From Sphingomonas palustris (GTDB lineage: Bacteria > Pseudomonadota > Alphaproteobacteria > Sphingomonadales > Sphingomonadaceae): a DNA stretch of 64,000 nucleotides. How positions within the stretch are numbered: position 1 is the first letter of the stretch; the number at the start of each line of letters is the position of its first letter. The position numbers and the translations under genes are program-made. Under the pieces are notes generated by a model. That model searched no databases and had not been told where the DNA came from. It worked only from the letters and a program-made list of their open reading frames with translations. Of this stretch, positions 33,647 to 61,394 are shown in pieces. The stretch is from NCBI GenBank assembly GCA_026225215.1, contig JAMFSI010000110.1, forward strand, positions 62,001-126,000, given 5' to 3'.

Positions 33647-33771
33647 CCCGCAACCTCCAACTGGGGGCAAGGCTGGCCAATCGGCCGCTTCACCCGGTGC
33701 CTCCAGGAGGATGCAAGTCTCAGGCCAATGACGTTAAGCCCGAAAAGCAGCCGACTTCAGCAACATATACC

Positions 33772-33786
33772 ATGCTGCATTGCGCA
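33772..33786 (+). promoter_or_regulatory. Candidate enhancer (UAS) for sigma-54 activator
   Basis: ATGCTGCATTGCGCA resembles TGCTGCAATTGCACCA at 39106-39153 (one deletion); about 90 bp upstream of sigma-54-like promoter 33873. Confidence 0.4.
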
Positions 33787-33872
33787 AAATCCCGCAGCCC
33801 GCTGGTGAATACTCCGCAGCATGAGGCAGCCCTGCCCATCAGGCCGCGCGCGATCACGGCGAATGCGGCGCT

Positions 33873-33887
33873 TGGCATGGTCCCTGC
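33873..33887 (+). promoter_or_regulatory. Candidate sigma-54 promoter for TonB receptor 2
   Basis: TGGCATGGTCCCTGC; GG-N10-GC spacing; about 80 nt before ATG 33968. Confidence 0.5.
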
Positions 33888-33967
33888 GTAGCGGGCGCCG
33901 TTCGGATCAATTCCGATTGCATTGCATCGTCGGCCGATTGCCCTCGAGCATTCCACAGGGGAAAATT

Positions 33968-36274
33968 ATGTTCGCCAGATATACGACCGTTGCTTTGATG
34001 ATGGTTAGTACCGCGTGGCCTGCGCTGACTTATGCGCAACAGGCCGCGCCGGCTGCTGCCACCGATGCCAGCTCTTCCTCCAGCACCGATCAATCCGGCA
34101 ACGGCACCGGCACCGGCAACGGCGACATCGTCGTCACCGCGCTCCGCCGCGCAACCCGGCTGGAACAAACCCCGGCAGCCATTACCTCGCTCAGCAACGA
34201 CGCCATTCAGCAGAACAACATCACCGATCTTTCGGACCTTCAGCAAGTCGTCCCGGGCCTTGTGGCTACCAGCCAGGGTGCTGGCCTGAACGAACTCAGT
34301 CTGCGGGGTGTCCGCAGCAGCGCCGGCGACCAATTGGTGGGGCTTTATTATGACGAAACCCCCCTGAACGCTCCTCCTGGAACGACGACGGCGCAGGCAT
34401 CTGCGCAAAGCGACGTTGATTTTTTTGATATTTCACGGGTAGAAGTGCTGCGTGGACCGCAAGGCACACTGTATGGCGCCGGCGCAGCGGGGGGCGCGAT
34501 CAAGCTGATCACTAACAAGCCGGATCTCGAACATCTCGGCGGCACGATCGACCTTACCGGCAGCACCATCGACCATAGCGCCCAAGGCTATCAGGCCAAT
34601 GGCGAGATCAACATTCCGCTGATTCAAGACAAGCTGGCAGTGCGTGTGGTGGCCTATCGCCGGTATACGCCGGGCTATATCGACAACTCTCACCTTGGCC
34701 TGAACCATGTGAACAGCGATGCGGCTACAGGGGGGCGAGTGCTGGTGCGCTACCAGCCGGTTTCCGCCGTCACCTTGGACTTCTCGGCGCATTTCGGTTA
34801 TGAAAACGGCAAGGGCGATCCGCTCTGGGCGCCGTCTCAGGGCCTCTATCAGTCAGCAGATCTGGTTTTGCTGAAGTTCAGAGACAAAAACCGTTTCTAC
34901 AACTTCACGGGGAATTTCGATCTGGGTTTCGCGAAGCTGACCGCGACAACATCCTATCAGGACCGCAATCTGCTGCAGACGCGCGATCCCAATCCGTTGT
35001 TCGCACGCACCTTCAATCCGGCAATCGCCGCCGCCGGGGGACACCTTGGCACGCCCTACGCATTGCCGGTCGAGTACTACCAACCCCAGGACATCGAAGA
35101 CCTGACCTCGGAAGTTCGCTTGTCATCCGAAGGAAACGGTCCCTTCACATGGACGATCGGCGGATATTACGAGGATCGGCATTCTCATCTCACTTCGGAT
35201 ATAGCCAATGTGGCCAACCCGAGCATTGGCTACAATCCGAATTCCGACACCCTGCTGTTCGTGCGCCATGTCGTGGACGATCGCATTCAGAAAGCAGTAT
35301 TCGGGGAACTGGCGTACACCTTATTCCACAATCTGACAGCGACGGGCGGCATCCGTTACTACGACTATCACAATACCGTGGGCGGTGATCGCACTTACAG
35401 CAATCCCGCCTACCCCGCCAACGCTGCATTCTTTGGCGCCTTGCTGCCCTTCACGGCTTATAATTCGCGCGACAACGGCCTGCTCTATCGGGGAAATCTC
35501 AGCTGGCAGGCCGATCACCATCTGCTGTTCTATTTCAATGCGGCATCGGGATATCGGCCCGGCGGCGTGAACCAGCCGATCGGCAGCGTTACCAATCTGC
35601 CCTACAATCCCGACAGTGTCTGGACTTATGAGGCCGGCGCCAAGGCAAGCTATCTGGGCGGTCGGCTGGAAGCCAACGTCGCGCTTTATCGCACCGACTG
35701 GTCCAACATGCAGATCAACCTGAACAGCGGCAGCTTTTCCTTCATCGGCAACGCCGGTTCGGCCCGGCTGCAAGGGCTGGAAGCGGAGTTGCATTTCGAG
35801 CCAGCCAGGGGCTGGTCCTTCGACACCGCCCTGACCACATCGTCGAACAAGCTGACTTCCGATCAGATTTTCAACGTTGCGAGTGTCGTTGGCAGTGCCT
35901 CGGGCAAGGCCGGCGACCGCGTGCCGAACGTCCCCGATGGCACGGTGGATTTTTCCAGCACGTATGAATGGGGGATCGGCAATGGGCTGAAGGCGCAGGT
36001 TCACGGCAACGTCAGCTACATCGGCAACTCCTACAGCGCCTTCAATCCGGGAACCAGTGCGGCTGTAGCCGGCTATTACAAGATCGGCGATTATGCCGTC
36101 GCCGGCGCCCGCATCGGGGTGAAAGGACCGAGTTGGTCGGCCGCTGTGTTCGGCAGCAATCTCTTCGACGGGAAAGGAAAAATCTCTGCTGCCAATACGC
36201 TGGGCGGTGTGACCGAGACGGTCCTCACCGTTCAGCCGCGGACTATCGGGATCAATCTGACCAAGAGCTTCTGA
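33968..36274 (+). CDS. TonB-dependent receptor 2
   Basis: MFARYTTVALMMVSTAWPALTYAQQ; DIVVTALRRATRLEQTPAAIT; VEVLRGPQGTLYGAGAAGGAIKLIT; terminal ...INLTKSF. Confidence 0.93.
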   Translation: MFARYTTVALMMVSTAWPALTYAQQAAPAAATDASSSSSTDQSGNGTGTGNGDIVVTALRRATRLEQTPAAITSLSNDAIQQNNITDLSDLQQVVPGLVATSQGAGLNELSLRGVRSSAGDQLVGLYYDETPLNAPPGTTTAQASAQSDVDFFDISRVEVLRGPQGTLYGAGAAGGAIKLITNKPDLEHLGGTIDLTGSTIDHSAQGYQANGEINIPLIQDKLAVRVVAYRRYTPGYIDNSHLGLNHVNSDAATGGRVLVRYQPVSAVTLDFSAHFGYENGKGDPLWAPSQGLYQSADLVLLKFRDKNRFYNFTGNFDLGFAKLTATTSYQDRNLLQTRDPNPLFARTFNPAIAAAGGHLGTPYALPVEYYQPQDIEDLTSEVRLSSEGNGPFTWTIGGYYEDRHSHLTSDIANVANPSIGYNPNSDTLLFVRHVVDDRIQKAVFGELAYTLFHNLTATGGIRYYDYHNTVGGDRTYSNPAYPANAAFFGALLPFTAYNSRDNGLLYRGNLSWQADHHLLFYFNAASGYRPGGVNQPIGSVTNLPYNPDSVWTYEAGAKASYLGGRLEANVALYRTDWSNMQINLNSGSFSFIGNAGSARLQGLEAELHFEPARGWSFDTALTTSSNKLTSDQIFNVASVVGSASGKAGDRVPNVPDGTVDFSSTYEWGIGNGLKAQVHGNVSYIGNSYSAFNPGTSAAVAGYYKIGDYAVAGARIGVKGPSWSAAVFGSNLFDGKGKISAANTLGGVTETVLTVQPRTIGINLTKSF

Positions 36275-36299
36275 TATAATTCTTTTCTAAGCAAGACTA

Positions 36300-36340
36300 A
36301 TGAAGCTGCCGCCCGCATTTGCGGATGGCAGCTTCATTTT
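36300..36340 (+). terminator. Intrinsic terminator after TonB receptor 2
   Basis: ATGAAGCTGCC-GCCCGCATTTGCGGAT-GGCAGCTTCATTTT. Confidence 0.75.
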
Positions 36341-36407
36341 GCGAAAGTATCTTCTACTCCGCTCAATACATAGTGACGCAAACCACTTTACCCAGGATTG
36401 CACTTAT

Positions 36408-36444
36408 AGCGTCTGATCCGAAATTGAGTTTCAGATCAGACGCT
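36408..36444. repeat. Inverted repeat AGCGTCTGATC/GATCAGACGCT
   Basis: AGCGTCTGATC-CGAAATTGAGTTTCA-GATCAGACGCT, 11-bp perfect arms. Confidence 0.8.
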
Positions 36445-36544
36445 GAGACCCAAAGGCGGGTGAAGCTGGTATTGGCCACTGAGAAGAGTTGCTCACCCCC
36501 TCTCCCCAGTGGACGATCAACAAAAATCGATACAATCACCTGGA

Positions 36545-38971
36545 TCAGAACTTGTAGAGCAGCGAAGCTCCCCAGGTGCGCGGGTCGCCATATTGGACAT
36601 CATCGCCCAACACCGCTGCGGCGGATTGCGTAGGCGAATTGACAGCAGCGACCGAAGTAGCGGTGAATGCTGGCAAGGCGTGATTGATATATACCGTGTT
36701 TAGGAAATTATTGACGAACACCGAGGCGCTGAAACGATCGTTGGGTGCGATCCAGGTAATCCGTGCGTTGGCTAGTGTATAAGCCCTATTACCCAGCAGA
36801 TAGCGACCGGGGGTCTGTGCCGGCTGGTCGTTCACATAGTAATATTGATGCGACGTATAGCGCGCATCCGCCTCCAGCTCGATCTTGCCGGCCTTCGCCA
36901 GCGGCAGGGTATAAGTGCCCCGACCGTTCAAGGTCAGATGCGGTGAGCGGACAAACTGATTTCCCGCAAGACTGGCCCCCCCGTTGATCACCTGGAATTG
37001 ATCAAACTTTGTATAAAGGAGGCCCGCCGAACCATCCAGTTTCAGCCGTTCGGTGGGCGCAGCGGTGAGTTCGAACTCCGCGCCATTCGCGTGAGCCTTG
37101 GCTGCGTTTTGCAGATAGGAAACCGAAGTATTCAGCACCTGGGGGTTTGGGCCGACCACGTTGACCTGAACATTGCGGTAATCATAGTGGAAGACAGTGG
37201 CATCGAAGGTCAATTTGCCGTCGAAGAACGTCGATTTGTAGCCGCCTTCGAAGTCGTTCAACCGCTCGGGTGCCACCACGATCAAGGCTGCAGGCACCGC
37301 CGCCGCCGTGTTAAAACCACCCGACTTCACGCCATGAGCGAATTTGAAGTACAGCAGATTGTTACGGTCGATCTTGAACTGCGGGGTGATATCGTAAGTC
37401 AGTGCATCCCAGGTTTTCTTGAGTACATTGGAGAATGTGTTGAGGCCGCCAATCGCTCCGGTATAATTATCCCACCACTGAGAGTAATTGCTCCAGGTCG
37501 CCAAATTAGCATTTGGCCCCGTAGTTGGAGTGGCCGAACGAGCGAAATCGAGCGTCTTGGTCTCGCGGCTCCAGCGCAAACCGCCAGTTAGTTTCAGGGC
37601 ATCGGTGAAGTTGTAAGTAGCGCTACCGAAGGCGGCACCGCTCTCGGCTTTATGCTCATAATCGATCAGGCTGTAAGCGGGAGCGCCAACATAGCCCGAG
37701 GCCGGCACGCTGCCCGCAGGCAAGTCGGCGGCATATGTGTCCGAGTGGATCTTCTCGTTGAAGTAGAACAGCCCCGTGATCCAGGTCAGCTTACCGGTTT
37801 GCGGCGAGGTCAATCGCAGCTCCTGTGTGAACTGGCTGGAATATGCGGCTGTATAACCCTCCGAGACGTTCAGTGGCGTATAGTCGCTGTCGGTTGCGCC
37901 AGCTGTGTCGAAGCGCTCATAGCCGCTGATCGAGGTCAGCGTGGTGCCACCGAGGTGGTAGTTTAGGTGCAGATTGCCGCCGATCTGACGATTATTGCTA
38001 TAAACTGGGCTATTCTCGTCGATATCGTTGATATCGGTCGAGGGGATGTAACCATTTCGGACAACCCCGCTGGCAGCATAGCTGGCGGTGGTCCACAGGT
38101 CACCCCGCGTATCGTATTTGCGATAGTGGAAGCTTAGCAAGGCATCCAGGTTTGTGGCCGGCTGGGCCAGAAGCTGCACGCGGACATTGTCGTCGGTAAT
38201 CCCGTTGCCCTTCTGCCCCGTGTACAGGTTGGTGAAACGACCGTCGCTGTCATCCAAGTGGAACGAGACGCGGGCCGCCAAAGCGTCGGGAACGATGACG
38301 GTGCCGATGCCACCTTCGGCGACCTTGTCGTCGTAGCTGCCGTATTCCAGCTTCACATAGCTGTCCTGATCGGCGGCGAAGGTCGGGCGTTCCGAAATGA
38401 TGTTGATCGCGCCGCCGGTGGTGTTCTTGCCCCACAGCGTGCCCTGCGGTCCGCGCAAAATCTCGACCTGCTGGACATCGAACAACGGCAGACCAGTCGC
38501 ATTCTCGTCCGAGATATACACATCGTCGAGATAAAAGCCCACTGGGCTGGCAAGATCGATTTGCTGCTGCCCGGCGCCGATGCCGCGGATCCACCAGCGC
38601 GGACGGCTGTGCTGGGTGGTGCCGGCCGAGGAATTCGGCGTCTGGGTAAGCAGTTCGGCAGCGGTTCCTCCGCCGAGGTCGTCAGTCCTGAACAACTCCT
38701 TGCTGAACGCGGTGACGGCGCTTGGCACATCCTGCAGGCGTTCCTGGCGGTGCTGCGCGGTCACGACGATATCCGCCGCCCCGGCGCCGTCGGCGGCATT
38801 TGCATCGGCGGCCGCGTTGGTGTCGGCAGCAGCAGCGTTCGACGTAGCGGTGGCGGCAGACGCTTCAGCGCCGGCTGCAAATGCCGGGCTGGTGATCAAA
38901 GCGGCTATCGCGAGCGCGCTGGCTCCAGACGCGACGGTCGTACGGAATAGGTTGGACAAGGATTCCCCCAC
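36545..38971 (-). CDS. TonB-dependent receptor 3
   Basis: DIVVTAQHRQERLQDVPSAVTAF; VEILRGPQGTLWGKNTTGGAINIIS; C-terminal WGASLLYKF. Confidence 0.93.
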   Translation of the reverse strand: MGESLSNLFRTTVASGASALAIAALITSPAFAAGAEASAATATSNAAAADTNAAADANAADGAGAADIVVTAQHRQERLQDVPSAVTAFSKELFRTDDLGGGTAAELLTQTPNSSAGTTQHSRPRWWIRGIGAGQQQIDLASPVGFYLDDVYISDENATGLPLFDVQQVEILRGPQGTLWGKNTTGGAINIISERPTFAADQDSYVKLEYGSYDDKVAEGGIGTVIVPDALAARVSFHLDDSDGRFTNLYTGQKGNGITDDNVRVQLLAQPATNLDALLSFHYRKYDTRGDLWTTASYAASGVVRNGYIPSTDINDIDENSPVYSNNRQIGGNLHLNYHLGGTTLTSISGYERFDTAGATDSDYTPLNVSEGYTAAYSSQFTQELRLTSPQTGKLTWITGLFYFNEKIHSDTYAADLPAGSVPASGYVGAPAYSLIDYEHKAESGAAFGSATYNFTDALKLTGGLRWSRETKTLDFARSATPTTGPNANLATWSNYSQWWDNYTGAIGGLNTFSNVLKKTWDALTYDITPQFKIDRNNLLYFKFAHGVKSGGFNTAAAVPAALIVVAPERLNDFEGGYKSTFFDGKLTFDATVFHYDYRNVQVNVVGPNPQVLNTSVSYLQNAAKAHANGAEFELTAAPTERLKLDGSAGLLYTKFDQFQVINGGASLAGNQFVRSPHLTLNGRGTYTLPLAKAGKIELEADARYTSHQYYYVNDQPAQTPGRYLLGNRAYTLANARITWIAPNDRFSASVFVNNFLNTVYINHALPAFTATSVAAVNSPTQSAAAVLGDDVQYGDPRTWGASLLYKF

Positions 38972-39015
38972 TGGCTTACGGCCGCGGAATGCGCCCGGTC
39001 AACGGCACCTGCATG

Positions 39016-39030
39016 GCAAGCCCCGTGCCA
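39016..39030 (-). promoter_or_regulatory. Candidate sigma-54 promoter for TonB receptor 3
   Basis: Minus strand TTTGGCACGGGGCTTGCCA = TGGCACG-N4-TTGC, exact consensus. Confidence 0.75.
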
Positions 39031-39105
39031 AACCGAAATTTCATTTAAATTTCAGCTAGATATGGCCACGATCCTGAGGATCCTGGTTGCTTGACCGATG
39101 ACCGT

Positions 39106-39153
39106 TGGTGCAATTGCAGCATCGCGTTCCAAGTGAATGCTGCAATTGCACCA
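39106..39153. promoter_or_regulatory. Candidate enhancer: perfect 17-bp inverted repeat
   Basis: TGGTGCAATTGCAGCAT-N14-ATGCTGCAATTGCACCA, about 75-120 bp upstream of sigma-54-like promoter 39016-39030. Confidence 0.65.
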
Positions 39154-39184
39154 GCCCCGCTACTCCGACAACGGCAGTATTCGC

Positions 39185-41038
39185 TTAGCTCGCCGGTTGG
39201 AGCTTTGCCGCCTGCTGGCTCAATACCGGGGCAGCCTGATCGTAGGCGGCATAGAGTGCAGCATAATGACCATCCTGCGCCAACAACTCGTCGTGCCGAC
39301 CAAGTTCGACGATGGCGCCTTCGCGAATGACCGCGATACGATCCGCTTCCCGGATGGTGGCCAGACGATGGGCGATAATCACGCTGGTGCGCCCCTCGCA
39401 CACCCGGCGCAGGGCTTTCTGAATCCGGCGTTCGGTGGCGACATCGACCGCGCTGGTCGCCTCATCCAGTACTAACACCGCCGGATCGGCGAGATAGGCC
39501 CGGACTAGACAGACCAGTTGCCGCTGCCCCTGGCTGAGCTGGGCGCCCAGTGCACCGACCTGGCTGTGATAACCATGCGGTAGCGATTCCAGCACTTCGT
39601 CTGCGCCCAGTTCGCGGGCCGCAGCGATCAATTCATCGTCCGATGCTGTGGGGCGAGCCAGGCGCAGATTATCGAGCACGCTGCCACCGAACAGGACATT
39701 GTCCTGCAACACGATGCCGACCTGGCGGCGTAAGCTGCTTTCGGAAATTTCCCTGATATCGTGCCCGTCGAGCAGTACCGCGCCTTCGTCGACATCGTAG
39801 AACCGGGTGAGTAGCTGGACGATGGTGCTCTTCCCGTGACCGGTAGGGCCGACGATCGCCAAGGTTTCGCCGGGCGCAACGGTAAGGTCCAGGCCATGGA
39901 TCACCGGCCGCCCTGGCGGGTAGGAGAACTTTACCCCCCGGAACACGATCTCGCCGGTCAGGCGCGGTAGGTCGCGCGCGTCGGGCGCGTCCCTAATGTC
40001 GGGCTCGGTATGCAGCAGCAGGAAGATGCGCTGGGCACAGGCCGTGCCATTGGCAAAGCGCTCGAACAGGTCGGAGAATTCCTGCAAAGGTGCCAGGAAC
40101 AGGAATACATAGAACAGGGCCTGCGTCAGCTGGCCCAGCGACATCGTGCCCAACGCAATGCCGCGCCCGCCAATCACCAGGGTCAGCGCCAGGCCGGCAG
40201 TGGTCAGCAGGCCCGTGTAAGGCGCGAACCAGCCCGAGCGGCTGTTGCCCCGAATCAGAGCCCGGTTGAAGTCGAGCAGCAGCCCCCGATAGGTAGCGAG
40301 GTTTTCCGCTTCGCGCCCGGTTTGCTGGATCAGCCGGACCCCGGCCACGGTTTCGACCAGATGCGCGGTGAAGCGGCTGCGGCATTCGGCGACGCGGGCC
40401 CAGCTCGCCTGGCTGACCCGCTTGAACAGCAAGGTCGCGATGATCAGCAGCGGCACCACCCCGGCAAGGCCAAGCAGCAGCGTTGGCGCGATATGCCACA
40501 GCAAGAATGCTGAAATCAGCAGCCGCAGAACGGCGGAGAGAAATTCGGGTGGCCCCTGGATCAACAGCGGCTCGAGCATATCGACATCGCGATCGGCACG
40601 GGCGATGATGCGGCCAGCCTTCGTGCGATCGAAATAACCCACCGACAACGTCTGGACATGGGCGAAGACCTGCGCGCGCAGATCGTTGAGCACGCGGATG
40701 GCCGCCAGTCCGGCACAATATTGCGAAAACCCGCCGAGCGCGAAACGCAGGCTCCAGCTCGCGACCAGGCCTGCGCAAGCCCAGGCCACCAGCGTTGCGT
40801 CTATGCCTCCCGTGGCGTGGCGCAGACCTTTGTCGATCACGAAGCCGATCAGCAGCGGCCGGATAAAGATCACGACGACTTGTACCAGCTCGATCGCCGC
40901 CACGGCCGCGATCAATCGTCGCACCGGCCGTACCAGCGGGAACAGATTGGCGGTGATGCTCCGGTTCAGCGCCTTCTTGGCAAAGCGCTCCTCAAGCTCG
41001 ATATCGGAGAGGGCAGAGTCGCCCCTGAAAGCGTTCAC
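39185..41038 (-). CDS. ABC half-transporter (TMD-NBD), catalytically canonical NBD
   Basis: GPTGHGKST Walker A, LSQGQRQL signature, VLVLDEATSAVD Walker B, IIAHRLAT H-loop. Confidence 0.92.
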   Translation of the reverse strand: MNAFRGDSALSDIELEERFAKKALNRSITANLFPLVRPVRRLIAAVAAIELVQVVVIFIRPLLIGFVIDKGLRHATGGIDATLVAWACAGLVASWSLRFALGGFSQYCAGLAAIRVLNDLRAQVFAHVQTLSVGYFDRTKAGRIIARADRDVDMLEPLLIQGPPEFLSAVLRLLISAFLLWHIAPTLLLGLAGVVPLLIIATLLFKRVSQASWARVAECRSRFTAHLVETVAGVRLIQQTGREAENLATYRGLLLDFNRALIRGNSRSGWFAPYTGLLTTAGLALTLVIGGRGIALGTMSLGQLTQALFYVFLFLAPLQEFSDLFERFANGTACAQRIFLLLHTEPDIRDAPDARDLPRLTGEIVFRGVKFSYPPGRPVIHGLDLTVAPGETLAIVGPTGHGKSTIVQLLTRFYDVDEGAVLLDGHDIREISESSLRRQVGIVLQDNVLFGGSVLDNLRLARPTASDDELIAAARELGADEVLESLPHGYHSQVGALGAQLSQGQRQLVCLVRAYLADPAVLVLDEATSAVDVATERRIQKALRRVCEGRTSVIIAHRLATIREADRIAVIREGAIVELGRHDELLAQDGHYAALYAAYDQAAPVLSQQAAKLQPAS

Positions 41039-41056
41039 AGCGTCGCACTCCTCATC

Positions 41057-42850
41057 TCAGATCCCCATGAGCGCGCGGTAGGCCGAGTTCGACACGCTTA
41101 GCTGGTCGTGCGTGCCATTGGCGACGATCCGGCCCGAAGCCAGCACCAGCACGCGGTCGGCGGCAAGGATGGTCGACAAGCGGCTCGATACGATCAGCAT
41201 GGTCGGCGGCTCGGATCGCCCGCGCAAAGCGCGGATATTGGCGATAGCGCGCCGTTCGGTGGCGGCGTCGAGCGCGCTGGTGGCATCGTCGAGCACCAGC
41301 AGGTCGGCCCCCGACAGCAAGGCGCGGGCCAGGCAGATACGCTGGCGCTGACCGCCCGAAAGCGTCACTCCGCGATCGCCGACCTTGGTCGCCAAGCCCT
41401 CGCCGAGACGGGCCAGGACATCGCCCGCAGCGGCTTGCTCCAGCGCGTCGATCAGTTCGTCCTCGCTGGCGTTGGGGGCGGCAAGCCGCAGATTGGCGGC
41501 CAGCGTGTCCGAAAACAGGAAGCTCTCCTGCGGCAATACATGCACGCGGCGGCGCAGCTCGCTCAGGGTCAGCGAACGGACATCGTGCCAACCCGCCGCG
41601 TCGCTGCCGACCAGCACGCGTCCCGCACCCGCTTCCAGCAACCGGGGCAACAATGAGGTCAGGATGCTTTTGCCGGCGCCGGTCGGGCCGACCAGCGCCA
41701 CGATCTCGCCGGGGCGGATGGCGAAGGACAGATCATGCAACACCATGCCGCCATCACCGAGCGGCGCCGCGGAAATGTGCTCAAGCTTCAGCCCCAGCGG
41801 ACCCGCCGGCAGTTCGTCCGAGCCGGAGACGATCCCGGGTTCGGCATCGAGCACTTCCCAAATCCGCGCGGCTGAAGCGCGGGCGTCGGCGATCACCTGC
41901 AGTAGCCGGCCGATCCCCTCCATGCGCAGCACCAGCGTATTGACCACCAGCATCGCCGCCACCAGCCCACCGATGCCCAGCTGATGCCGCGACACCAGCC
42001 AGGCGCCATATCCCAGCACCCAGGCGTGGCCGAGCGCCATCACGGCTTGCGGCAGTGGCACCCGCTTCGAGGCGTGAGCGATGGCCGCGCGTGCCTCATG
42101 GCGGAAGGTATCGACATGGGTGCGGAAACGCTCGACCCGAGCCTGCGACAGACCGAACGCCTTGATCACGCGAACGCCGTTGACGCCTTCCGACAGATCC
42201 TGAGTCACCGCGTCATAGGCGGCGCCAATCCGCGTATCGAGCCGCACCAGCGCGTCGGCCTGCGACCACAGCATCGCAATGCCCAGCACCATCAGCGCAA
42301 ACGGGACTGCGCCGAGCCACGGCGACCAGCTGAACAAAACCCCCACCGAGATCACCACGACGAGGCCGGTCTCGAACATCTGGCGCCAGAAATTGATCAG
42401 CGCATCGCGCAATTTGTCGGCATCGCGAGTCATCCGCGTAACCATCTCGCCGACGCCGTGGCGCCAATGATAAGCGAGATCGAGCCGCTGGATCTGGGCG
42501 AGGATGCGCCCGCGCAGTTTGGTGAGCAATTCCTGGCCGATGGTCAGCGACAGCAGACCAGCGCCATATTGCACGACGCCGCGCGCCAGCGACAATGCCA
42601 TCAGCACCACCGCCCAGTGCCAGGCGCGCGAGTAGTCCAACCCGCCAGCGATGTGGCGCACCAGTCTGCCGCCACCCGCCTCCTGCACCGCGCGGCCGAC
42701 CAGCACTTGCTGGCCGACCAGCGCGACATTCACCGCCGCCAGCAGCAGCGCGGTAGCGGTAAAGCGCAAGGGCATCTCGCGATAAATCGCCAGGCACCGC
42801 AACAGCGGACTGCGCGCCAGGAATGGCGCCTTACTCCCCCCGCTCACCAC
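41057..42850 (-). CDS. ABC half-transporter (TMD-NBD), degenerate NBD
   Basis: GPTGAGKSI Walker A, LSGGQRQR signature, LLVLDDATSALD (E to D) and IVSSRLST (H-loop His to Ser). Confidence 0.92.
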   Translation of the reverse strand: MVSGGSKAPFLARSPLLRCLAIYREMPLRFTATALLLAAVNVALVGQQVLVGRAVQEAGGGRLVRHIAGGLDYSRAWHWAVVLMALSLARGVVQYGAGLLSLTIGQELLTKLRGRILAQIQRLDLAYHWRHGVGEMVTRMTRDADKLRDALINFWRQMFETGLVVVISVGVLFSWSPWLGAVPFALMVLGIAMLWSQADALVRLDTRIGAAYDAVTQDLSEGVNGVRVIKAFGLSQARVERFRTHVDTFRHEARAAIAHASKRVPLPQAVMALGHAWVLGYGAWLVSRHQLGIGGLVAAMLVVNTLVLRMEGIGRLLQVIADARASAARIWEVLDAEPGIVSGSDELPAGPLGLKLEHISAAPLGDGGMVLHDLSFAIRPGEIVALVGPTGAGKSILTSLLPRLLEAGAGRVLVGSDAAGWHDVRSLTLSELRRRVHVLPQESFLFSDTLAANLRLAAPNASEDELIDALEQAAAGDVLARLGEGLATKVGDRGVTLSGGQRQRICLARALLSGADLLVLDDATSALDAATERRAIANIRALRGRSEPPTMLIVSSRLSTILAADRVLVLASGRIVANGTHDQLSVSNSAYRALMGI

Positions 42851-42862
42851 TTGGCCGACCTG

Positions 42863-43945
42863 TTAGCCAACCAGCGCTGCGGGAGCGCGGATCAGGCCCA
42901 ACCGTTCCTGCGCCACTTCGAGCGCGCGCGGGTCGGCCCATTCATTGACGTCGAAACTCTCGGGAATGAAGCCCCAGCGATGCAGGAAGTTGGTGAAATC
43001 CTGGAGCGCGACAAGTGATTGTTCGCTGAGATCGGTTTTGAGCTTGGTCTGGGCGTCGTTGCCATAAGCGACCTGAACCCAATATTCGCTGGCATTGGTT
43101 TCGCGCGCCAGATAGCGACGCACCTGGTCGGGGTTCTCCTGCGCCCAGGCTTCTGCGCGCAGCACTTGTTCGACGATCGTCACTGCGGCATCGAAGTGAT
43201 GCTCGACGAGGTGGCCATCCACTGCCAGCGTGCGCGGCGTGCCATTGTTCGAACGCACCAGCGGGTCGGGATGCGCGCCGGTATCGATGACCGTGGTCAG
43301 CCCGAACTGGTGAGCGACCTGCGCCCCGTGCGCGCCTTTCAGGAAAATCGCATCGACTTCGCCGCGCAGCAGCGCGATGACTTCGAGGTTATTGGCCCGG
43401 CCCCGCCCGGTCGAACGCCCGCCCCAGGCCAGCGTGCCGCCGCGATTTTCGGCGCGGCCTTCGCTGTAATGGGTGTCGATGTCCTGATCGACCAGCTCGA
43501 CATCGGACACTTCCAACCCGTCTAGGCGCAGGGCATTTTCCAGGCCTCGGATCGCTTGCGCGCGGCTGAAATCGATCTCGACCTGCTTCCAGTTGGGCAA
43601 GCCGAAGCGGCGACCCTTGAGTTCGCGGGTGCTGGTGATGCCACTTTCCGGGCTCGCCAGGATCAGCTGAGTCTCATCGGCCCAGGACAGACCGAGCAAG
43701 CGCGTGTCGCGTCCGCGCGCACGGGCGCTGATCGCCGGAATATTGCCGCCGTGCCGGACTGAATTCTGCAAAGTATGGCTGAAATGCGATTCGCGGGTGG
43801 CGAAATCATTCGATTCTATCAGCGACGAAACCTTGGTACCCTGCTGCGCGAAAGCCTCTTCCAGCCACCCCTGCTGGATGGCGATGCCGAGCCCGGTCGG
43901 CACCGGGCAGCGTGTGTACCATAGCGTATCGAGATGTTCGGACAT
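42863..43945 (-). CDS. DszB-like sulfinate desulfinase family / SBP-fold protein, paralog 1
   Basis: LWYTRCPVPTGLG, HFSHTLQNSVRHGGNIPAI, TRLLGLSW, VSDVELVD: aligned with DszB Cys27, His60, Arg70 and GG. Confidence 0.8.
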   Translation of the reverse strand: MSEHLDTLWYTRCPVPTGLGIAIQQGWLEEAFAQQGTKVSSLIESNDFATRESHFSHTLQNSVRHGGNIPAISARARGRDTRLLGLSWADETQLILASPESGITSTRELKGRRFGLPNWKQVEIDFSRAQAIRGLENALRLDGLEVSDVELVDQDIDTHYSEGRAENRGGTLAWGGRSTGRGRANNLEVIALLRGEVDAIFLKGAHGAQVAHQFGLTTVIDTGAHPDPLVRSNNGTPRTLAVDGHLVEHHFDAAVTIVEQVLRAEAWAQENPDQVRRYLARETNASEYWVQVAYGNDAQTKLKTDLSEQSLVALQDFTNFLHRWGFIPESFDVNEWADPRALEVAQERLGLIRAPAALVG

Positions 43946-43989
43946 GGTAATGTTCCTTTCTAGACGTTCTTGATTCAATCTGGTCGCTG

Positions 43990-44134
43990 AAATCCTCCCC
44001 CTCCGGGGTAGGTGGCAGCCCGAAGGGCTGACGGAGGGGGTAGCTCAAAGGACGAACTTCTCTCCCGGATGTTTCACCCGGCCCGCCCCCTCCGTCTCGC
44101 TGCGCGAGCCACCTCCCCCTCCGGGGGAGGATTT
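43990..44134. repeat. Inverted CCTCCCCCTCCGGGG repeat pair
   Basis: AAATCCTCCCCCTCCGGGGTAGGTGGCAGCCCGAAGGGCTGACGGAGGGGG ... CCCCCTCCGTCTCGCTGCGCGAGCCACCTCCCCCTCCGGGGGAGGATTTT. Confidence 0.85.
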
Positions 44135-44159
44135 TGCGTGGGCGCGTCGATGGGCCATG

Positions 44160-45506
44160 TCAGGCGACGAGCGCCGGCTGGCGCTGATGAGCAGCATTGG
44201 GATTTTCCGGGCGCGGCAGGTGCAAATGCTCGCGTAGCGTCGTGCCTTCGTATTCCTTGCGGAACAGCCCGCGACGTTGCAGTTCCGGCACCACTTGATC
44301 GACGAAATCCTCGAGCGAGGAAGGCAGCAGCGGCGGGATCAGGTTGAAGCCATCGGCGGCGCCGCGCTCGAACCAATCCTGCATGGCGTCGGCGATATCG
44401 GTCGCCGTGCCCAACACCACCCGGTGACCGCGCACCGCGTTGAAACGCAGGAACAGCTGGCGGATCGTCAGGTTCTCGCGCCGGGCCAGCGCGGTCAGCT
44501 GACGCCAACGGCCCTTGCCGTTTTCGGGCTCGGGCAGATCGGGGAGCGGCCCATCGAGCGGATAAGCGCTGACATCGTGGCCCATAAGGTTGAGATCACC
44601 GGAGAAATCCACGGCTTCTTCGAGCGCGGCGAACTTGTCCTGCGCCTCCTGCAAGCTGCCGGCGATGGTGAACGACAGGCCCGGCATGACCTTCAGCGTA
44701 TCGGGATCGCGGCCATAGCCGACGACCCGCGCCTTGACGTCGGCATAGAAAGCCTGAGCGTCCTCGATAAATTGGGCCGCCGCGTAGATCATCTCGGCAT
44801 GGCGGGCGGCGAAATCGCGCCCCGTTTCCGAATTCCCCGCCTGTGCGAATACCGGATAGCCTTGCACCGGGCGCGGCATGTCGAGCACCGAATCGAGATG
44901 ATAATAGGGCCCGCGATGATGCACCGGATGGACGGCATCGCGGCGCAGGTAGATGCCACTATCGCGGTCTGCGCCCTCGAAGGCGTCATCCTCCCAACTG
45001 TCCCACAGCCCTTTCGCCGCGGCGACGAAATCATCGGCGCGGGCGTAGCGCTCGGCATGGCTCGCAGGTTGATCGACGCCGAAACTCTTGGCGGCGCCGT
45101 CGGCCAATGAAGACACGATATTCCAGCCGGTGCGTCCGCCGCTGATCCGATCGAGCGAGGCAAAGCGCCGCGCCAGCGAATAGGGTTGCTCGAAATTGGT
45201 GTTCACCGTCGCGACAAGGCCGATGCGGCTGGTGATGCTGGCCAGCGCAGCGATCACCGTGAGCGGCTCGAAATCGAGGAAGGCGTGGCGCCGCTCGATG
45301 CCCTTGGTCGAATCCCCGGACTGTCCGACGAAATCGGCGAAGAACGCCGCGTCGAGCTTGCCGCGCTCAGCCGTCTGCACCAGCCGCGCCCAATGCTGGA
45401 AATCGGGCAGGCCCGCCGGCGCGCTACCGGGCTGGCGCCACGCGCCGGGATGATGCCCGTGACGGGTGAGGAAGACGGCAATCGCAAGCTGGCGTTTTTG
45501 GCTCAT
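44160..45506 (-). CDS. FMN-dependent monooxygenase, DszA/NtaA/SnaA family
   Basis: LDAAFFADF...SLARRFASLDRISGGRTGWNIVSS...RGLFRKEYEGTTLREHLHLPRPEN, luciferase-like. Confidence 0.9.
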   Translation of the reverse strand: MSQKRQLAIAVFLTRHGHHPGAWRQPGSAPAGLPDFQHWARLVQTAERGKLDAAFFADFVGQSGDSTKGIERRHAFLDFEPLTVIAALASITSRIGLVATVNTNFEQPYSLARRFASLDRISGGRTGWNIVSSLADGAAKSFGVDQPASHAERYARADDFVAAAKGLWDSWEDDAFEGADRDSGIYLRRDAVHPVHHRGPYYHLDSVLDMPRPVQGYPVFAQAGNSETGRDFAARHAEMIYAAAQFIEDAQAFYADVKARVVGYGRDPDTLKVMPGLSFTIAGSLQEAQDKFAALEEAVDFSGDLNLMGHDVSAYPLDGPLPDLPEPENGKGRWRQLTALARRENLTIRQLFLRFNAVRGHRVVLGTATDIADAMQDWFERGAADGFNLIPPLLPSSLEDFVDQVVPELQRRGLFRKEYEGTTLREHLHLPRPENPNAAHQRQPALVA

Positions 45507-45569
45507 GGCTAATCCGGTCGTGGCAGAAGAAACGGGGCCGCCGCCTGGCAGGCAGCGGCCCCGTGGATA

Positions 45570-46310
45570 TTATTCGGCAGGTTCGACGGCAGGCTCGCGC
45601 AGCACGATCTTGCCGTCATCGGTGACATGAGCGTCGGGCGGCACGAGCTTGCCCATCTTCCACTGCTGTTCGAGCACGCCGGGGCCAAACGGCTTGGAGC
45701 CACCCAGCGCTGCCGCCAGCACCTGGAAGCGCGCGCCCTCTTCGAGCAACACGATATTGTTCACCAGATGGCGCAGGCCTTTCCAGCTCCACACCGTCGC
45801 GCCGCCATTGGCCTCGACGATCGCGGGCACTTCGTGATCGACCTTGATCGCGTCGAGAATGAAGTCGGCCTCGCTCTGGCGCCGGTTGATGTAGACCGGC
45901 AAATGCGAGGTAAAGCGGAAGCGACGGTTGGGCACATAAAGCAGCGGCAGCTCGGCATGCGCCTGCGAATAGGCCCCCAGATGCGGGGCATGGACATGGC
46001 TGATCGCCGCGAAGTCGGGATGCGCCTTGAACAGCTTAAGGTAGCGCCCTTCGCCCGAGGGCTGATCGCCCCATTCGGCCTGCCCGTCGAAATTGAGCAC
46101 CGTCGTGATCGGCGCATCCGGATCCTCGGCCCACAGCCCGGCATAGCCGAACGTGACGATCCGCTCTTCGCCCGGCACGCGCACGGCAAAGCCGACCGTG
46201 CCCGAAGGCGAGATGGTGTGGGTTTCGCGCAGCAGGCGAAACGCCTTGCGCGCGTCGGCCTCGGTTTCGCGGACGAAAGCAATCGTGGTCTTGGAAAGTC
46301 CTTGAGTCAT
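45570..46310 (-). CDS. Class II aldolase/adducin family protein
   Basis: AFRLLRETHTISPSGTVGFAVRVPG...AISHVHAPHLGAYSQAHAELPLL...NIVLLEEGARFQVLA. Confidence 0.85.
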   Translation of the reverse strand: MTQGLSKTTIAFVRETEADARKAFRLLRETHTISPSGTVGFAVRVPGEERIVTFGYAGLWAEDPDAPITTVLNFDGQAEWGDQPSGEGRYLKLFKAHPDFAAISHVHAPHLGAYSQAHAELPLLYVPNRRFRFTSHLPVYINRRQSEADFILDAIKVDHEVPAIVEANGGATVWSWKGLRHLVNNIVLLEEGARFQVLAAALGGSKPFGPGVLEQQWKMGKLVPPDAHVTDDGKIVLREPAVEPAE

Positions 46311-46321
46311 GGCAAGTCTCC

Positions 46322-47431
46322 TCAGGCTGGAACGGTATGTTGCGGAGCGGGAAGGTTGGCGTTGAAGGCAATCGCTGCCGCCAGCGGACGCGGATCGATC
46401 CAGTCCGCCAGGGCAAAATCGGCATCGAGAAAGCCGTGCGTGAACAGGAATTTCTTCTGTAGATCGAACAGCGCGAGGCGCTCCTCGTCCAGCGTCGGCT
46501 TCAACCCCTCGTGCAGCTTGGCATAGGCCTGGTTGACCGACGCGGCGCTCGCGGCGGTCTCGAATTCCAGGATTTCGCGCAAGGCATCGGGCTGGTCTTT
46601 GGCGAAGTCGGCGGCGCGCAGCGTCACCGCGAGAAAGCGCACGACGAGGTCGAAGTGATCGTCGAGCAGGCTCTGGTGAACGGTGATCGGGCGCGGCGTG
46701 CCATTGTTGACGCGAAAGCGGCGGTCGGCGATGGCATCGAGATCGACGGCCACTTCCAGCCCGGCCTCGCGCGCGGCATCGAGCGCCGAGGCGCCCTTGA
46801 CGTAGATCGCATCGACCGTGCCATCGACCAGCGCCTGGACCGGCCACAGCCGGCCGAGCCGGCGATCTCCCGCCGGGCGTAGATCGCGGCCCGCACCGCC
46901 GACCTCGCGGGTGTGATCGGGGGTTTCGATCAGTTCGACATCGTCCAGCGTCAGCCCGACCGATGCCAGCACGCCCTTATAGCCGGCCAGCGACATGCCT
47001 CGGGCAATGCTAGTGCCGCGGACATGCTCGGCGATCGGATTGCGATTCCAACCGGGCAGCGCCAGGCGCTTGCCCTTCAAATCCTCGGCCCGGGTGATGC
47101 CGCTGCCGCCGCGCACGAGAATGAGCTGGCTTTCTTCGATCCAGGTCAGGCCGATCAACCGGGTCGGTTCGCCTTGCGCCCGCGCACCGAAGGCCAGCAT
47201 ATTGCCGCCCTCACGGATCAGCGCGGGCAGGCGGTGATCATAATGATGCCGGGCCAGTTCCGAGCCCGATTCCTGCAGCGTGCGCAGCGCGATACCGTCA
47301 GCGGCGAAGGCCTCGGTCAACCAGCCGAGCTTGTAAGCGATGCCGGTGGCCGTAGGCACCGGGCAGCGGGTAAACCACAATTCGTCCAATCGGGCCGTTG
47401 CGGCAGGCTGGCGCTGAAGCGCAGTGGACAT
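46322..47431 (-). CDS. DszB-like sulfinate desulfinase family / SBP-fold protein, paralog 2
   Basis: LWFTRCPVPTATG, HYDHRLPALIREGGN, TRLIGLTWIEESQLI; Cys/His/Arg positions of DszB retained. Confidence 0.8.
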   Translation of the reverse strand: MSTALQRQPAATARLDELWFTRCPVPTATGIAYKLGWLTEAFAADGIALRTLQESGSELARHHYDHRLPALIREGGNMLAFGARAQGEPTRLIGLTWIEESQLILVRGGSGITRAEDLKGKRLALPGWNRNPIAEHVRGTSIARGMSLAGYKGVLASVGLTLDDVELIETPDHTREVGGAGRDLRPAGDRRLGRLWPVQALVDGTVDAIYVKGASALDAAREAGLEVAVDLDAIADRRFRVNNGTPRPITVHQSLLDDHFDLVVRFLAVTLRAADFAKDQPDALREILEFETAASAASVNQAYAKLHEGLKPTLDEERLALFDLQKKFLFTHGFLDADFALADWIDPRPLAAAIAFNANLPAPQHTVPA

Positions 47432-47470
47432 GGCAGATAACCCCTCGTCAATTGAACCGAAGGATCACTC

Positions 47471-47485
47471 GCAAGGGCCATGCCA
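47471..47485 (-). promoter_or_regulatory. Candidate sigma-54 promoter for DszB-like 2 operon
   Basis: Minus strand TTGGCATGGCCCTTGCG = TGGCAYG-N4-TTGC, 40 nt before ATG 47431. Confidence 0.7.
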
Positions 47486-47613
47486 AGCGCGAAAGTGCTA
47501 AATTGCGCCGTTTTCGCGCACCAAAATACTGCCCGCTGCGCGATATTCAGCAGCAGCTATGGTGGTTTTTCACCGCTGACGTATTATGCCAAACTGCCAT
47601 GGCCGAAATCTAT

Positions 47614-47706
47614 CCCGTCCATGCTGAGCTTGTCGAAGCACTGCCTTGTTCTTCTGATGAGCCCAAGAAAGAAAGACAATCCTTCGACAAGCTCAGGACC
47701 GACGGG
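47614..47706. repeat. Inverted repeat of the CTTCGACAAGCTCAG family, copy 3
   Basis: CCCGTCCATGCTGAGCTTGTCGAAGCACTG ... CAATCCTTCGACAAGCTCAGGACCGACGGG. Confidence 0.85.
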
Positions 47707-47742
47707 AAAAGGTTTGGGCCGCGATTAGCGCAACCTATGGTA

Positions 47743-48861
47743 TTAGATCAGCCCCAAATTCTTGAGATAAGTCCGCACGACATTCCGGGTGACGCCAAGC
47801 GCCTCGGCCGTCTTGATCTGGTTGGCGCTGCATTGGCGGAACGCTTCCGTGACCGTCGTGCCGATCAGCCTTTCGAGCAAGTCCGCATGGCCGCCCTGCA
47901 ACAGCCGGCCCACCAGCGGGCGCACCAGATCCTCGAGCGCAGCACCGGAATCATTGAGCCCATCATCGGGCGGATCATACGCGAACCGCGCGCCCAACCC
48001 CAGATCCTCCTCCTCGATGCGGCCATCCTGGCAGACCAGCGTGCCGCGATGAATGGCGTTTTCCAGCTCGCGGATATTGCCCGGCCAGCCGTAACCGAAC
48101 AGCGCCTCCTCGGCAGAAGGGGTAAGTTCCAGGCGGCTCGGCTCGTGCCGATCGCCGTAGACCTGGAGGAAGTGGCGGGCGAGCGGCAGGATGTCGGCGC
48201 GCCGATCGCGCAGCGGCAGCAACGGCAGGGTCACGACTTGCAACCGGTAGAACAGATCGGATCGAAACCGCTTCTCTTCTACCTCCCGGTGCAGTTCGAC
48301 ATTGGTCGCGGCGATCACCCGCACATCGAGCTTGATCGGGGTCCGCGAGCCGAGACGGACCACCTCGCGCTCCTGCAGCACCCGCAGGAGCTTGACTTGC
48401 AGCGCCAGCGGCAGATCGCCGATCTCATCGAGGAACAGCGTACCGCCGTTGGCGGCCTCGAACCAGCCGGGCCGCGCCGCCAATGCTCCGGTGAACGCAC
48501 CGCGCTCATAGCCGAACAATTCACCCTCGATGAGCGATTCGGAAAACGCCCCGCAATTGACTGCGACAAAGGCCGCGCCCGCGCGCCGGCTACGGGCATG
48601 GACATAACGGGCGACCAGCTCCTTGCCGGTGCCGGTCTCACCGATGACCAGGACATTGGCTTCGCTGGGAGCCACTTTTTCGATCAGCGGCAATATCTTG
48701 CGTGAGCGCGGATCGGTAAACACCAAGGCCCGGGCACGCGGTCCGGTGGCGTGATGATCCTCCGATTCAAAGGCCAGCAAGGGACGGCCATCAGGGCTGA
48801 CGGTCGAGACCAGACCGCCTAAACCTTCGCCGACGAAACGATCCTGCGGCACCACGGCCAT
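47743..48861 (-). CDS. Sigma-54-dependent transcriptional activator (SfnR-like, no receiver domain)
   Basis: [21 protein letters not shown] loop ([16 protein letters not shown]), [31 protein letters not shown]-terminal Fis-type HTH. Confidence 0.93.
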
Positions 48862-48900
48862 ACTTCCTCCCGAGTTGCCGGGAGATTACCAGATTATTCT

Positions 48901-48915
48901 CTACCTTGTTAGTAG
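48901..48915. promoter_or_regulatory. CTACC-N5-AGTAG motif upstream of sigma-54 activator gene
   Basis: CTACCTTGTTAGTAG; matches CTACCAAATAAGTAG at 58602-58616. Confidence 0.45.
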
Positions 48916-48941
48916 AAAAACAATTGCCAGGCCTAGCGCGG

Positions 48942-49997
48942 CTATTGCGCCGCCGTTTGAATCGGCTCGGCATCGCTGGCCAGTCGCTGGATTGCAGCCG
49001 CCAAAGGGGCAGGATCGACCCAGGATTGGACATCCACCGGCGCTGTCAGAAAGCCCTGCGCCCAGAGGAATTGCGCCTGAATCCGCAGCATGTCGATGCG
49101 ATCGGCTGAGAGATCGGGATGCAACGCGCGCAGGACATGGCTGCGATAGGCCGCCTCGACGCCGCCCAGGCCCGAGAGCGTGTCGCGTGCCAGGATCGGC
49201 TTGAGTTCCGCCGGGTGAGTGGCGGCCCAATCGGCGGCGCGCAGCGTCTGGGCGAGAAACCGCACGACCAGATCGAAGTGATGGTCGAGCATATGCTGGT
49301 GGACGACGATCGGGCGCGGGGTGCCGTTGTTGATCCGCGTCATCCGGCTCGGATAGGCATCGAGTTCGACCGCAGCCTCGAGCCCCAGTTCCGCTGCCAG
49401 CTCGGCGGCCGCCGCGCCTTTGGCATAGACCGCATCGACCTTGCCCTGCGCCAGCCATTCAAGGCCGAGCCATAATCGTCGCATGCCCTGGGCGCTGGTC
49501 GATTCGGATGGGGGGGCTGGCACTTCGACCAGCCGCACGTCGTCCAGCGTCAGTCCGCCGAGTGCGAGCGCGCTGGTAATGCCGCGCAGCGCCATGGCGC
49601 GGGCAATGCTTTCGCCCGGCGTGCGGCTGAAGCCGGGCAGGGCAAAGCGCATGCCTTTGAGGTTCATGGGCTCCAGCACCGGGGTATCCCGCCGGGTCAT
49701 GATCACCTGGCGCTCGTCGATCCAGGTCAGGCCGATAACCCGGGTCGGCGCGCCCAGTGCCCGCGCCGCCAGCGCCTTGATGTTTCCACCCTCGCGGAAC
49801 AAGTGCAGCCCCAGATGTTCGGGATCGGCGGTGACGATATTGAGACCGCCCTCATTCACGCGCCGCACGACGATGCCGTCGCCGGCGAATTCCTCGCTGA
49901 TCCAGCCGAGCGCCCAGGCCACGCCCGATGCCGCTGCCACCGGACTACGCGTCATCCACAAGGATCGGGGCAATTCAGGGCTCGGCACTTCAGGCAT
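48942..49997 (-). CDS. DszB-like paralog 3 lacking catalytic Cys and His
   Basis: LWMTRSPVAAASG (Cys to Ser), DPEHLGLHLFREGGN (His60 position Asp; Arg-x-Gly-Gly kept); rest of fold motifs conserved. Confidence 0.78.
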   Translation of the reverse strand: MPEVPSPELPRSLWMTRSPVAAASGVAWALGWISEEFAGDGIVVRRVNEGGLNIVTADPEHLGLHLFREGGNIKALAARALGAPTRVIGLTWIDERQVIMTRRDTPVLEPMNLKGMRFALPGFSRTPGESIARAMALRGITSALALGGLTLDDVRLVEVPAPPSESTSAQGMRRLWLGLEWLAQGKVDAVYAKGAAAAELAAELGLEAAVELDAYPSRMTRINNGTPRPIVVHQHMLDHHFDLVVRFLAQTLRAADWAATHPAELKPILARDTLSGLGGVEAAYRSHVLRALHPDLSADRIDMLRIQAQFLWAQGFLTAPVDVQSWVDPAPLAAAIQRLASDAEPIQTAAQ

Positions 49998-50066
49998 GCT
50001 GTTCTCCCTGGCCCGCCCGCGATGACACAGAATGGCGGTCTTATCTCGATACAAGACTATCGCCTG

Positions 50067-50081
50067 GCAAACCCCGTGCCA
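50067..50081 (-). promoter_or_regulatory. Candidate sigma-54 promoter for DszB-like 3
   Basis: Minus strand TTGGCACGGGGTTTGCCA = TGGCACG-N4-TTGC, exact consensus. Confidence 0.75.
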
Positions 50082-50167
50082 AGCAGCGTAAATCAGCGGC
50101 GCTCAAGGATGAATGAGCGAAAATTTGCCGCGCTGTCAGTCAGGGCGCTGGGATTTGCGCAGCCAGG

Positions 50168-50195
50168 ATGGTGCAACTGCTGCAAATTGCGCAGT
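50168..50195. promoter_or_regulatory. Candidate shared enhancer between divergent sigma-54 promoters
   Basis: ATGGTGCAACTGCTGCAAATTGCGCAG; reverse complement TGCAGCAGTTGCACCA matches 14/16 with TGCTGCAATTGCACCA at 39137-39153. Confidence 0.6.
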
Positions 50196-50258
50196 CCGCC
50201 CGCTTACACCCCCCCGCCCCACTGCCCCAGCCCCAGCAATTACGCCGCGATGGCGAAT

Positions 50259-50273
50259 TGGCACGCGTGGTGC
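50259..50273 (+). promoter_or_regulatory. Candidate sigma-54 promoter for ssu-like operon
   Basis: TTGGCACGCGTGGTGCA = TGGCACG-N4-GTGC; 50 nt before GTG 50324. Confidence 0.6.
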
Positions 50274-50323
50274 ATCGTTCAAGGCTGAAGCTTCAGACCA
50301 TGCTTGCGGAAAGGCAGTACCCA

Positions 50324-53054: not shown

Positions 53055-53068
53055 ACAGGAGCCAGCCT

Positions 53069-53971
53069 ATGTCGTTCGAGCCAGTGCCCCAGCGTCCGCC
53101 CCATCTTTCTCAGACCGGGCCTCAAACCGGGATTGCCGGCGCGGAGTCCGCGCGATCGGCGCGCGGGGCTCTGACGATCAGCAGTCTCGACAAAAGCTTC
53201 ACCATCAGCGGCACGGCGCGCAAGGTGCTCGATGGCATCAATCTCACCGTTCGCCCTGGTGAATTCGTCAGCATCGTCGGCGCGTCGGGCTGCGGGAAAT
53301 CGACTCTGTTGCGGCTGATCGTCGGGTTGGACGACGAATATACCGGCGAAATTCGCCTCGATGGCGAACGCGTCGCCACCACGAGCCTCGATCGCGGCAT
53401 CGTGTTCCAGGACCACCGCTTGTTCCCCTGGATGACACTGGAGCAAAACGTCGAACTGGCGCTGCTCAACACCGATGTGCCCAAATCGCGCCGCGCGCAG
53501 ATCGTTGCCGACCACATCGCGCTGGTCAATCTCACCGGCTTCGAGAAGGCTTATCCGCACCAGCTCTCGGGCGGTATGGCGCAGCGCGCCGCAATCGCCC
53601 GAGCCCTGGTGACGGAGCCCAAGCTGCTGCTGCTCGACGAGCCGTTAGGCGCCCTCGATGCGCTGACCCGCGTTCATGTCCAGAACGAGTTGCAGCGGAT
53701 CTGGATGCAGCAGCGCTCGACCATGGTGATGGTGACTCACGACGTCGAAGAGGCGCTCTATCTCGGCGATCGGGTGATCGTCATGACCCCCCACCCCGGC
53801 CGCATCCGGCGGATCGTCGATGTCGATCTGCCCCACCCGCGCGACCGGCGCTCGCCGGTGTTGCACCGGCTCAAGGATGAGATTCTCGCTGAACTCACCG
53901 CGGCGCCGACCGACACGACCGACGACGCTCGGGGCAATCTCGTGCTCCTGCCTACCCGAGAGGACCGCTGA
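53069..53971 (+). CDS. Ssu/Tau-type ABC ATPase (SsuB-like)
   Basis: [61 protein letters not shown]. Confidence 0.93.
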
Positions 53972-55607: not shown

Positions 55608-55619
55608 GGAGATCCAGCG

Positions 55620-61384: not shown

Positions 61385-61394
61385 TGCCGGGCCG

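Follow-up and report, generated by a model that had tools for sequence, protein, structure and literature searches.

A candidate sigma-54-dependent regulon for organosulfur use in Sphingomonas palustris, with an SfnR-type activator and helically phased palindromic operators

Introduction

In a 64,000-nucleotide stretch of Sphingomonas palustris DNA (assembly GCA_026225215.1, contig JAMFSI010000110.1, positions 62,001 to 126,000; hereafter the window), genes for TonB-dependent receptors, ATP-binding cassette (ABC) proteins, flavin monooxygenases and homologs of the desulfinase DszB lie together with a gene for a sigma-54 activator resembling SfnR of Pseudomonas. A first-pass annotation of the window, made from its letters, listed five promoters of the form GG-N10-GC at this locus, all of which are present at their listed positions and strands. 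It also proposed that they tie TonB receptors, an importer and desulfinase-like genes into one circuit, and this agrees with the common promoters and phased operators described here, which are found in relatives as well. The operator, a palindromic putative activator site close to GCTGCNNAATATTNNGCAGC that lies upstream of all six window promoters, had gone unseen.

Results

Promoters and operators

The elements on which the argument turns are listed below in window coordinates, with operators given without strand.

33713..33727, minus strand: sixth predicted sigma-54 promoter, TGGCCTGAGACTTGC, divergent from TonB-dependent receptor 2 (TBDR2) and before an operon of an alpha/beta-hydrolase (ATG 33646) and an M20 peptidase
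33779..33820: two operator palindromes, centres 33789 and 33811, 22 bp apart, common to the divergent 33727(-) and TBDR2 promoters
33873..33887, plus strand: predicted sigma-54 promoter of TBDR2, TGGCATGGTCCCTGC (ATG 33968)
39016..39030, minus strand: predicted sigma-54 promoter of TonB receptor 3, TGGCACGGGGCTTGC (start TTG ~38959); nearly all relatives have a site ahead of the ortholog
39104..39155: two operator palindromes, TGGTGCAATTGCAGCA and TGCTGCAATTGCACCA, 32 bp apart, upstream of TonB receptor 3
47471..47485, minus strand: predicted sigma-54 promoter of the dszB2 operon, TGGCATGGCCCTTGC (DszB2 ATG 47431), conserved in relatives
47535..47554: operator palindrome GCTGCGCGATATTCAGCAGC, centre at -59 from the dszB2 promoter, 22.5 bits
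47743..48861, minus strand: SfnR-type sigma-54 activator with GAFTGA, no N-terminal sensor domain and a Fis-type helix-turn-helix (HTH)
48942..49997, minus strand: DszB-like 3, the activator's operon partner, with Ser at the catalytic Cys position and Asp at the catalytic His position
50067..50081, minus strand: predicted sigma-54 promoter of the dszB3-activator operon, TGGCACGGGGTTTGC (DszB3 ATG 49997)
50144..50195: two operator sites, centres 50154 and 50186, 32 bp apart, common to the divergent dszB3 and ssu promoters
50259..50273, plus strand: predicted sigma-54 promoter of the ssu-like operon, TGGCACGCGTGGTGC, with sites also in G183, G274, G095, G245, G501 and G541

The window promoters match TGGCACGN4TTGC and are conserved before genes. 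The first-pass annotation had placed its five sites ~30-80 nt before start codons, which holds at four of them (~40-80 nt); the start of the ssu-like operon is ambiguous, the candidates being ATG 50300, ~28 nt past the site, and ATG 50365, ~92 nt past it. The sixth promoter was missing from the earlier list and was found among the matches of a two-mismatch scan. In the relative G245, the ortholog of the hydrolase operon has TGGCCCGAAACTTGC at the place matching 33727(-), and the ortholog of TBDR2 has a weaker site, TGGCACATTCCGTGC, upstream. A further exact pattern match at 33620(-), TGGCATGATGGTTGC, was rejected as the divergent promoter, since it lies within the conserved hydrolase coding region and it is 33727(-) that fits the G245 promoter position.

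Genome-wide scans, which were pattern searches only, covered the 3.8 Mb draft genome (G000), in which rpoN has a single match (E 5.5e-65). The form TGGCAYGN5TGC has 40 exact matches in the genome, compared with 16 for a reversed-pattern control, and nine of the 40 fall in the window, where 0.67 are expected (Poisson p ~4e-8).

A 20-bp palindromic motif fitted to the upstream regions reaches 14.25 bits, compared with 6.56 +/- 0.26 bits (maximum 7.14) for 60 dinucleotide shuffles, and a matrix trained without the window places sites before all six window promoters. Operator centres fall at about -51, -61, -72, -82, -93, -104 and -115 from the -24 element, on one helix face with a period of 10.5-11; tested on unique promoter/distance combinations (n=30), this phasing gives a Rayleigh p of ~6e-9, a value that is strong rather than exact given sequence relatedness. 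Repeats upstream of window promoters show a 32 bp spacing, and overall second operator sites lie mostly 23 or 32-33 bp away, with 43 bp also occurring. The pair between the 33727(-) and TBDR2 promoters forms a mirror layout, with centres 33789 and 33811 at about -62 and -84 from the former and -84 and -62 from the latter. Of the exact promoter matches elsewhere in the genome, those checked with their flanks have no strong phased operator, so that, as far as pattern searches can tell, the regulon appears not to extend beyond this locus. Operator-like palindromes with no sigma-54 promoter nearby were also seen: two strong intragenic ones in the window, at 1439 and 6661 (17 bits), and one of exact consensus at G000:C48:5122 (L113).

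Conservation in relatives

Orthologous loci were found via DszB-like 3 in ten other sphingomonad genomes (G245, G197, G183, G274, G095, G501, G541, G556, G550 and plasmid pTomTYG65a of Sphingobium sp. TomTYG65). The arrangement is nearly gene-for-gene the same in eight of the ten; G550 and G556 are rearranged, each with a second activator. When at least 10 of 11 consensus bases were required, these activator-bearing loci (498 kb, window included) held 59 sites, of which 45 lie in noncoding sequence ahead of genes. All 11 loci have such a site ahead of dszB3; ahead of dszB2, TonB receptor 3 and ssu, most loci do. By the same criterion, zero sites were found in 160 kb of five control loci (G254, G047, G085, G111 and G089) that carry ssu, dszB and TonB homologs without the activator, and operators of at least 16 bits number 38 in the activator-bearing loci versus 0 in the controls. 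Because the sites occur in activator-bearing loci and are missing from homologous activator-less loci, the promoters appear to be tied to the activator and not to the metabolic genes. A search of genome contigs for related loci returned one distant Streptomyces match only.

The activator and its operon partner

The earlier description of a GAFTGA activator without a receiver domain, similar in plan to SfnR, agrees with what we find. The Sigma54_activat domain (E 1.2e-68) starts at residue 48 and GAFTGA is present, and the N-terminus has no receiver or GAF/PAS domain and no other Pfam domain. The Pfam HTH search of the window activator gave no match above cut-off; its aligned HTH has an [IVL][TS]RNxxRxxL recognition segment and is 36-40% identical to those of P. 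aeruginosa activators. In pairwise comparisons, its AAA+ domain is 65-66% identical to those of two activators flanking the msu genes of Pseudomonas aeruginosa. For unfused msu/sfn-linked activators as a group the identity is 60-66%, versus 44-46% for three others of its own genome, which encodes six clear sigma-54 activators, one of them in this locus. The two msu-flanking proteins are probably SfnR1 and SfnR2, judging from position (PMC8234197) and gene order.

The activator gene follows dszB3, with which it apparently forms one operon, behind the sigma-54 site kept in 11 of 11 loci. DszB-like 1, 2 and 3 are all homologous to DszB (E 2e-5 to 5e-16), and the DszB1 and DszB2 orthologs, like the other paralogs examined, all keep Cys27, His60 and Arg70. 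The activator-adjacent DszB3, by comparison, has Asp for His60 in 11 of 11 and Ser for Cys27 in four of 11 (window, G501, G550 and G556), with Arg70 kept throughout. In G556 (L105-L107) and in G550 (L108-L110), the gene for the second SfnR-type activator closes an apparent long operon; at the head of this operon are a sigma-54 site and a DszB paralog that seems intact, and dipeptide-type ABC genes are among its members. Just past the activator stop in the window (47613-47707) lies a 35-nt imperfect inverted repeat with arms GCTTGTCGAAG and CTTCGACAAGCTCAG, which resembles a dispersed repeat element or a terminator.

Genes behind the promoters

33968..36274, plus strand: TonB-dependent receptor 2, with Plug and beta-barrel domains
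36545..38959, minus strand: TonB-dependent receptor 3, whose ortholog is annotated fyuA in Sphingobium TomTYG65
39185-41038 and 41057-42850, minus strand: two ABC half-transporters of exporter fold, at the end of the dszB2 operon
42863..43978 (approximate start), minus strand: DszB-like 1, with the DszB Cys, His and Arg kept
44160..45506, minus strand: NtaA/DmoA/DszA-family flavin monooxygenase, with matches to YtnJ, DszA and DmoA
45570..46313, minus strand: class II aldolase/adducin-family protein
46322..47431, minus strand: DszB-like 2, first gene of its operon, with Cys, His and Arg kept
50300..56777, plus strand: ssu-like operon, encoding SsuA, two permeases, SsuB, a nitroreductase-family protein and two SsuD-type flavin monooxygenases

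The exporter fold of the ABC half-transporters leaves their transport direction uncertain. The hydrolase behind the sixth promoter (32406-33646, minus strand) is split into frames 33005-33646 and 32406-33104; its homolog in G245 is apparently single-frame, and the split in the window is a frameshift or a draft error. The sulfur theme continues at 56895-63999, with another flavin monooxygenase, TonB receptor 4, a fused OpuAC-permease and an SsuB-like ATPase, and no strong sigma-54 site was found upstream of these genes.

Activators of other lineages

Azospirillum sp. B510 encodes a 725-residue protein that joins a related activator to an SsuA-type domain. Matches covering at least 80% of this fusion occur in 72 plasmid records, mostly from Pantoea among the matches listed and also from Methylocystis. 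In Azospirillum, Pantoea and Methylocystis, whose loci were outside the operator training set, sigma-54 sites with a phased copy of the same operator precede msuE-sfnG, ssuD or sfnG genes. Burkholderiales loci have weaker, less regular palindromes. Fusions of an SfnR-type activator to a C-terminal SsuA-type domain (L112:7776-9953, L137:8022-9911 and L138:7905-9893) go under inconsistent record names and are common on Pantoea plasmids. We found no paper on activator-SsuA fusions in a mostly open-access literature.

Discussion

The promoters, the operators and their phasing, the conservation of both and the co-location of the genes, as read from the DNA, point to a single sigma-54-dependent regulon for obtaining sulfur from organic sulfones, sulfinates and sulfonates under an SfnR-type activator, a reading to which we assign a probability of roughly 0.9. 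The activator would bind the palindromes, which lie on one face of the DNA and frequently form pairs with a spacing of 23 or 32 bp. From there, ~50-115 bp before the -24 element, it would open sigma-54 polymerase at six promoters, presumably in response to sulfur limitation. These promoters would serve TBDR2, the divergent hydrolase/peptidase operon, TonB receptor 3 and the dszB2, dszB3-activator and ssu operons, and in the long dszB2 operon the order dszB2-aldolase-monooxygenase-dszB1-ABC is predicted to be co-transcribed. Because it is encoded in the dszB3 operon behind a sigma-54 site, the activator would drive its own synthesis, and it is probably autoregulated. The gene set fits oxidation of a sulfone or sulfonate followed by desulfination, and the substrates would be of this kind.

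The regulon makes it testable how a sigma-54 activator that lacks a sensor domain knows when to act. We give about even odds to an arrangement in which there is no sensor partner, the activator being always active like Pseudomonas SfnR and its level set by a global sulfur regulator, with DszB-like 3 an enzyme of altered chemistry. The title of Endoh 2003 calls the P. putida SfnR CysB-regulated (PMC13352529), the catalytic Cys is kept in seven of 11 DszB3 orthologs, and the H60Q change costs DszB just ~17-fold (PMC6100217). Set against this arrangement are the start of the activator operon at a sigma-54 site in 11 of 11 loci, the loss of the catalytic His from every DszB3 and of the Cys from four, and the outcome of a search for sigma-70-like matches in 47.4-50.4 kb, where one weak match was found and not upstream of dszB3.

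It is also possible, though on balance doubtful, that DszB-like 3 is a catalytically dead desulfinase that still binds ligand, senses sulfinate or sulfonate and gates the activator. DszB3 adjoins the activator, apparently co-transcribed with it, in 11 genomes; its losses of catalytic residues, with Arg kept, are matched by no such change in DszB1, DszB2 and the paralogs; and the C27S form of DszB is inactive yet was crystallised with substrate (PMC6100217). Related activators are, moreover, fused to SsuA-type binding domains, and DszB-like 3 may tentatively be seen as a split counterpart of these fusions. However, the fused domains are SsuA-like by sequence and not DszB-like, in G550 and G556 the DszB paralog in the operon of the second activator seems intact, and an AlphaFold model of DszB-like 3 built from three window paralogs was too poor to use, with a predicted local distance difference test (pLDDT) score of 48. 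If DszB-like 3 is such a sensor, it would define a class of sigma-54 activators that is new, under the control of a cytoplasmic sensor with a binding-protein fold.

For the regulon as a whole, we regard conservation in relatives and the phased upstream sites as the decisive evidence, and several observations weigh on the other side. Enrichment in the window holds for the exact promoter form and not at two mismatches, where 127.5 matches are expected and 130 occur. Four of the nine exact window matches (5775+, 33620-, 40049- and 46823-) are intragenic and probably decoys. Because of the unenriched looser scan and these intragenic matches, the promoter sites taken alone are suggestive, short of proof. 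Orthologous promoters are not independent, so that p values overstate certainty, which the test on unique combinations lessens and does not remove. The operator before TonB receptor 3 is weak in G197, the msuE region of P. aeruginosa has no matrix match and just a related palindrome, TGTTGCCCGGGCAACA, and no sulfur-limitation signal was identified in the analysis.

One might suppose that the promoters are driven by another of the sigma-54 activators, of which the genome has five more that are clear. This is improbable, as the sites are missing from five activator-less loci with homologous genes, those exact promoter matches elsewhere in the genome that were checked with their flanks are not accompanied by strong phased operators, and this operator is found again beside SfnR-type activators of other lineages. 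The weakest alternative, that the sites are functionless chance GG-N10-GC matches in GC-rich DNA, draws on the two-mismatch count and the intragenic matches and is very hard to credit when sites are kept before orthologous genes in ten relatives, are absent from activator-less loci and are accompanied by phased operators that a held-out matrix finds.

If the regulon is as we propose, it supplies an explicit operator code for SfnR-type activators (palindrome, pair spacing and helical phase). This code held in three genera outside the training set, and SfnR-type regulons should therefore be predictable in genomes. It would also place TonB receptors and DszB-type desulfinases under one sigma-54 switch, which helps to predict organosulfur scavenging by sphingomonads.

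Paired activator sites ~32 bp apart are known from the glnA enhancer bound by NtrC. The pair spacing at our locus is similar, although spacings of 23 and 43 bp occur here too, and NtrC is controlled by phosphorylation whereas the sphingomonad activator has no receiver domain. The window homologs of DszB, the 2'-hydroxybiphenyl-2-sulfinate desulfinase (PDB 2DE2/2DE3), keep its RXGG motif; this homology is known from sequence and does not imply the 4S-pathway substrate. The activator-SsuA fusions (e.g. WP_173380518.1) belong to the same activator family, with AAA+ identities of 53-60%, and use the same operator, in a matching promoter arrangement, ahead of ssuD/sfnG genes. They carry the SsuA-type domain within the activator, whereas the sphingomonad activator has a separate DszB-type protein encoded alongside, and the parallel is no more than suggestive.

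The closest comparison is with SfnR, SfnR1 and SfnR2 of Pseudomonas, which serve in dimethyl sulfone and methanesulfonate use according to Endoh 2003 and 2005 and Lundgren 2019, as cited in PMC13352529 and PMC8234197. No paper on SfnR in sphingomonads was found in the mostly open-access literature, and the operator is possibly known in part from the original SfnR binding studies. Common to both systems are a short activator of AAA+ domain and Fis-type HTH without a sensor domain, linkage to flavin monooxygenases for C-S cleavage, and TGGCAC-type promoters, with a palindromic TGTTGC-N4-GCAACA element upstream of msuE. The sphingomonad regulon adds TonB receptors, DszB-type desulfinases, a DszA-type monooxygenase and ABC proteins of exporter fold, and its activator gene follows a sigma-54 promoter of its own, in one operon with a gene for a degenerate DszB. 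It would thus be an SfnR-type regulon of a known sort that in this case also takes in TonB receptors and desulfinases, has a defined operator and is run by an activator that apparently regulates itself.

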